This document shows, piece after piece, positions 63,770 through 64,000 of a DNA stretch of 64,000 bases. The notes beneath the pieces are model-generated. The model saw nothing but the letters and a program-made list of their open reading frames with translations, searched no databases and was not told the origin of the DNA. The position numbers and the translations under genes were made by a program. Each line of letters starts with the position of its first letter. The first letter of the stretch is position 1. The stretch covers positions 246,240 through 310,239 of the forward strand of contig JALHMW010000002.1 in assembly GCA_022843845.1 (NCBI GenBank), read 5' to 3'. The DNA comes from Archangium sp. (lineage in GTDB: Bacteria > Myxococcota > Myxococcia > Myxococcales > Myxococcaceae).

Positions 63770-63842
63770 GGGGTCATAGCTCAGCTGGGAGAGCGCCTGA
63801 ATGGCATTCAGGAGGTCCACGGTTCGATCCCGTGTGGCTCCA
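63770..63842 (+). tRNA. tRNA-Ala (GGC)
   Basis: 73 bases without CCA. Acceptor GGGGTCA/TGGCTCC (two G-T pairs), D arm with AGCTCAGCTGGGAGAGC, anticodon stem CCTGA/TCAGG around loop ATGGCAT (anticodon GGC), T arm CACGG-TTCGATC-CCGTG, discriminator A. Only the G-T pairs in the acceptor are less usual. Confidence 0.94.
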
Positions 63843-63850
63843 CAAACGAA

Positions 63851-63880
63851 GGGCTCCGGTGGAAACGCCGGGGCCCTTTT
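63851..63880 (+). terminator. Intrinsic terminator after tRNA-Ala
   Basis: GGGCTCCGG and CCGGGGCCC form a stem (one mismatch) closed by a short loop and followed by TTTT. It ends transcription of the tRNA gene and is the insertion target used by group IIC introns. Confidence 0.85.
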
Positions 63881-63884
63881 GCTT

Positions 63885-64000
63885 GTGTGCCCAGCACGGG
63901 CGTGGACAGGAGGTGGAAGTCCTCTCGGAAGCAGGTCGAAGCGACCGACACGAACCGCAAGGTGACAAGCCGGGAAACCGGTCCACGCGTGAGTGTGGCG
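63885..64000 (+). mobile_element. 5' end of a group IIC intron (truncated by window edge)
   Basis: Four bases past the terminator T-run the sequence reads GTGTGCCCAGCACGGGCG, matching the conserved 5' start GUGYG plus domain I opening of group IIC introns; the Oceanobacillus iheyensis intron starts GUGUGCCCGGCAUGGGUG. Further matches follow: AGGAGGTGGAAGTCCTCT (O. iheyensis AGGGUGAGAGUCCCG) and AACCGCAAGGTGAC (O. iheyensis UAACGCAAGGGUGUC). Group IIC introns insert just downstream of intrinsic terminators, exactly the position here. The reverse transcriptase ORF and domains V-VI are off the right edge. The comparison is to a sequence recalled from memory. Confidence 0.82.

Follow-up and report, generated by a model that had tools for sequence, protein, structure and literature searches.

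A putative group IIC intron behind the terminator of a tRNA-Ala gene, and a second intron family at start codons, in a Myxococcota-type genome

The tRNA-Ala terminator and the intron junction

The window, that is the whole stretch of 64,000 nucleotides which was analysed, corresponds to positions 246240-310239 of contig C2 of the genome under study (G000), and its last base is at the same time the end of this contig. The features relevant here lie at this end of the window:

63770..63843, plus strand: tRNA-Ala, anticodon GGC (ARAGORN; Rfam RF00005, 59.9 bits), the gene supplying the terminator used as insertion site
63848..63884, plus strand: 5' exon, consisting of the terminator hairpin (63848-63879), the T-run (63877-63880) and the tail GCTT up to the junction (fold of -27.8 kcal/mol; intact in the relatives G003 and G001)
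63885..64000, plus strand: putative group IIC intron, first 116 nt, start of domain I (six genome copies; 81% to the full intron L048; 10-copy alignment)

The terminator hairpin of the tRNA-Ala(GGC) gene consists of GAAGGGCTCCGGTG/GAAA/CGCCGGGGCCCTTT with a 14-bp stem and a GAAA loop (MFE -27.8 kcal/mol). It was missed by a generic terminator scan because the stem absorbs the T's of the T-run, and it was assessed by folding in place of the scan. An earlier note on this DNA had placed the switch to an intron four bases after this T-run, which proved to be exact, as only GCTT separates the T-run from the intron start at 63885 (GTGTGCCCAGCACGGGCG). At the junction the intron 5' end reads GTGTGCCCAGC..., and its GTGTG terminus, where GUGYG is expected, is common to nine of ten aligned copies, the one from G056 being offset in the automatic alignment. 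A conserved GGAGGTGNAAGTCCTC element is found near 63908-63925. The element was also said to leave the window, and it does so with 116 nt visible, being cut at 64000 where contig C2 stops.

Copies, partner contig and full-length relative

The same 116 nt are found again at the ends of five more contigs of this genome (C35, C37, C15, C10, and C50). The copies on C35 and C37 form one sub-line with the window copy (sub-line a), the three 5' ends of which are 98-100% identical over the shared stretch, and those on C15, C10, and C50 are about 96% identical to the window copy, which puts the distance between the two sub-lines at about 4%. The 5' exons of the window sub-line have CTT as their last bases and those of the other one GTTT, which may reflect a changed EBS1 between the sub-lines. 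In all six copies only about 100-116 nt of the intron are assembled, which fits an assembler stopping at a multi-copy repeat.

The six upstream flanks are unrelated to each other, and each forms a strong hairpin (MFE -27.1 to -31.4 kcal/mol) whose end is 1-7 nt away from the junction, and four to seven of the last eight bases are T. A terminator test requiring a hairpin with an MFE of -24 or below within 12 nt of the junction and at least four T in the last 8 nt was passed by all six copies of the genome, versus 2 of 20,000 random window positions (a background of 1e-4). Most copies in relatives, namely those in G002, G001, and G037 (four in the last), are located behind hairpins with T-rich tails too. 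Altogether, a hairpin followed by a T-rich tail (at least 3 T of 8) precedes 12 of the 14 inspected copies. In G038 the copy (L048) occupies a hairpin site that has no T-run, and given this site the intron family is not strictly tied to T-tails. Directly 3' of this copy a long hairpin, AAGAGTTGTCGAT...ATCGACAACTCTT (L048:3700-3760), takes the place of a T-run. Insertion of class C introns directly behind terminators is established (PMC4424553; PMC8919778), and the placement behind a terminator hairpin, which the earlier note took as support for the class C call, is proved by an empty site in a relative.

The genome contains 14 matches to domain V (RF00029), almost all of them at contig ends, and six of these (C15, C35, C3, C10, C18, and C45) share a form ending in ...CAGCCCCTATGCCGAT. 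The number of matching 3' ends (domain V ... CTATGCCGAT) is the same as that of the 5' ends, namely six. Another domain V-like match, of 30 bits, lies inside a contig (C26:70950-71021) and is assigned to neither of the two intron families of this genome. The partner of the window copy is contig C15, where domain V/VI and the 3' end occupy positions 39-116, the intron ending at position 116; the RF00029 score of 36.9 bits is below the Rfam cut-off of 40 bits, and the core is the same as in L048.

In the close relative G003 (L063), which is without the intron, the counterpart of the window sequence ending at 63884 directly adjoins the C15 sequence past the intron 3' end. The uninterrupted site is CCCTTTTGCTT^TTCCAG there (G003 reads CCCTTTTGCTTTTCCAG), and the arrangement in the genome under study is CCCTTTTGCTT, intron, TTCCGG. 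The left flanks are 95-97% identical between the two genomes and the right flanks (start of C15) 95.6%, and both are adjacent in G003; the window copy therefore spans C2 and C15. This proves a clean insertion without target duplication and identifies the C15 start as the 3' half of the window copy.

A full-length relative of about 1.9 kb (L048, on G038:C11) was found in the same order but another family. It starts with GTGTGCCCAGCATGGGC, its 5' end matches the window fragment at 81%, and at its 3' end it has the domain V and CTATGCCGAT terminus that also mark the six contig ends of the genome under study. From intron nucleotide 103 onwards it matches RF02001 (group-II-D1D4-3, domain I-IV) with 112.7 bits. 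Its reverse transcriptase of 457 amino acids matches TIGR04416 (3e-124), contains RVT_1 and GIIM only, without an endonuclease, and has the GsI-IIC reverse transcriptase as its best solved relative (E 5e-141). The group IIC identity proposed in the earlier note is supported by this match, that is by RF02001, the class C reverse transcriptase, and the shared domain V and 3' end, and 63885-64000 is accordingly regarded as the 5' end of a group IIC intron. Of the checks proposed in that note, the one for domain V was positive on the partner contig, while an Rfam search gave no group II match for 63885-64000, nor for any other part of the window, with either the gathering or a relaxed threshold. 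No match is to be expected, since in the full-length homologue the RF02001 model sets in only after 102 nt of intron, leaving about 14 modelled nucleotides here, and a negative Rfam result for this stretch therefore cannot refute the call.

The intron shares with bacterial class C introns of the B.h.I1 and GsI-IIC type the GTGTG 5' end, a short domain V, the clean junctions, and the insertion directly behind intrinsic terminators; the RF02001 domain I-IV and the endonuclease-less class C reverse transcriptase of this type are present in the homologue L048. There is no difference of kind from these introns; particular to the present case are the Myxococcota-type host and the two sub-lines (CTT or GTTT). 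The reverse transcriptases of group II introns on Sinorhizobium meliloti plasmids are 59% identical over the full length to that of L048, although the host class differs. The class C-attC introns of integrons belong to the same ribozyme class, whereas the target here is a transcription terminator.

Mode of insertion and alternative explanations

The best explanation, to which we assign a probability of about 96%, is that the tRNA-Ala(GGC) terminator received a mobile group IIC intron in its T-tail by retrotransposition, that contig C15 holds its 3' half, and that at least six copies exist in the genome. These fall into two sub-lines, and every intron copy broke the assembly. Judging from the class, a ribonucleoprotein of intron RNA and endonuclease-less reverse transcriptase would recognise the hairpin of the terminator, as DNA in single-stranded or cruciform form, together with 3-4 nt of IBS1. 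By reverse splicing the intron would then enter between ...CCCTTTTGCTT and TTCCGG..., leaving no target duplication, and be copied by the reverse transcriptase with priming at a replication fork, as is likewise assumed from the class (PMC4424553; PMC8919778). The expected layout of C2 and C15 would be an intron of about 1.9 kb with domains I-VI between TTTTGCTT and TTCCGG. An insertion downstream of the terminator does not disrupt the host gene, and with an intact tRNA gene and terminator the cost to the host should be small.

An insertion sequence or another unrelated repeat, or an assembly chimera, might be suspected at a contig end, as contig ends are places where chimeras occur. Six independent ends with different flanks share one boundary, however, and a full-length homologue with ribozyme and reverse transcriptase exists, which together make this explanation hardly credible; with the empty site in G003 and the lack of a target duplication it was rejected. 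Somewhat more serious, though still improbable, is the idea that the element belongs to the class C-attC introns, the sub-lineage targeting integron attC sites, and uses terminators opportunistically. Its domain V/VI presumably resembles that of attC-type IIC introns, and the G038 copy is found beside hairpins without a T-run, but a T-rich tail and its hairpin precede 12 of the 14 copies that were inspected, which speaks against it.

The alternative with the largest, if still rather low, probability is a degenerate or ORF-less group IIC copy, itself immobile, which was moved in trans. A search of the genome for reverse transcriptases (PF00078 and P0001) found none, the intron interior being missing from the assembly. 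Of 145 genomes of the order, 13 have related reverse transcriptases (E <= 1e-60), a count which includes more distant group II reverse transcriptases such as those of the second family, and those of G002 and G114 are partial or, in one case, interrupted by an internal stop. The lack of an assembled reverse transcriptase and the defective ones of G002 and G114 would fit an ORF-less copy, but the 98-100% identity among the sub-line a 5' ends and the distance of about 4% between the sub-lines suggest recent mobility, and the lack of a reverse transcriptase is explained by assembly collapse at repeats. The reverse transcriptases of the second family have also been lost from this assembly, though the full-length homologues of that family carry one. 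Most simply, the multi-copy interior was left out in assembly or binning, and we prefer the mobile group IIC intron.

Insertion of this intron explains why the contig ends at 64000. About 26 of the assembly's 108 contig ends can be attributed to the two group II intron families. GC-rich tandem repeats coding for low-complexity stretches were observed at the starts of contigs C1, C2, C3, C5, C7, C9, C12, C16, C19, and others (L081-L100). Much of the fragmented state of the assembly is explained by these tandem repeats together with the two intron families.

A second group II intron family at start codons

The other main form of domain V belongs to a second multi-copy group II intron family with seven copies in the genome. 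Its domain V is followed by CTCTACCAATG at C6, C8, C11, C16, C18, and C48 and by a variant of it at C39, and its 5' ends at C4, C8, C21, C22, C38, and C41 are each preceded by ...ATG; C49 matches the 5' end at 91%, with the junction unread. The closed genome G028 contains five copies of 1984 nt with at most one difference (L101-L105), in which ...CATG is followed by the intron (GTGCG...CTCTAC) and then by CAATG.... At two of these sites relatives lack the intron and read GTCCGCGCC ATG AGCGCG and GCGGCGCC ATG ACCTAC, and a third empty site, belonging to the genome under study, can be inferred from matching the C8 end and the C18 end to G003. An inserted intron of the second family is therefore flanked by a start codon at either end.

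In total 85 loci were examined, 80 from a scan of the genome collection (L131-L210) and the five from G028. Among them are more than 50 different sites whose 5' junction can be read, from Myxococcota, Burkholderiales, Acidobacteria, and others. The 5' exon ends in ATG or GTG at 53 of 54 readable 5' junctions. At the 3' junctions ATG or GTG was found in 82 of 82 readable cases, a count which is not independent as the search pattern required NTG after CTACC[AT] or CCACC[AT]; only three loci were without a match. The frame from the downstream start codon extends for at least 60 codons or off the end of the locus in 75 of 82. Four copies in N. pusilla are preceded by GTG, GTG, GTG, and ATG, respectively, and followed by CAATG in all four, so that the downstream ATG appears to be intron-borne.

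Another finding was a -10-like motif, TANNNT, ending 6-8 nt before the start codon in 46 of 53 distinct 5' exons (26, 13, and 7 at spacings of 6, 7, and 8), compared with an average of 1.0 in shuffles and with 3 of 112 long-ORF starts in the window. The spacer between this motif and the start codon varies in sequence and length among near-identical introns, a variation that speaks against simple EBS2 pairing. In 45 of 53 the intron frame stays open all the way from the host start codon across the reverse transcriptase region (at least 536 codons), and by a loose test 36 of 82 have a Shine-Dalgarno-like motif ahead of the new ATG. At the start of contig C21 (L095/L244) a copy lies inside an RHS-like coding frame and away from a gene start, still behind TACGCT-N6-ATG, and from this copy it is suggested that the second family recognises the motif rather than the gene start.

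It seems fairly probable, with due reserve, that two group II lineages with complementary gene-sparing targets coexist in this genome. The IIC intron inserts behind terminators, and the second lineage would insert behind leaderless-type starts (TANNNT-N6-8-RTG, the start lying at +1 of a -10 box), with its ORF in frame from the host start codon and a replacement start (CTACCA-ATG) at its 3' end. The intron protein would be translated from the host start codon, and entry of the ribonucleoprotein at the melted promoter is a speculation that may be added. According to a review from 2015 the known specificities comprise only homing sites, terminators, and attC (PMC4424553). The second family is a possible further target specificity for group II introns. 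Prior art would most likely be found in the work of Michel et al. from 2007 (Biochimie 89:542), which may cover introns with a large 5' insertion at the ends of coding genes.

As a member of a well-known group with a known gene-sparing habit, the terminator-inserted intron is ordinary for its class, and it provides a clear case, proved by an empty site, of class C introns multiplying behind terminators in a GC-rich Myxococcota-type genome. The location of the second family at leaderless-type starts, if true, would tie target choice to promoter geometry, and this would matter more than the element in the window.
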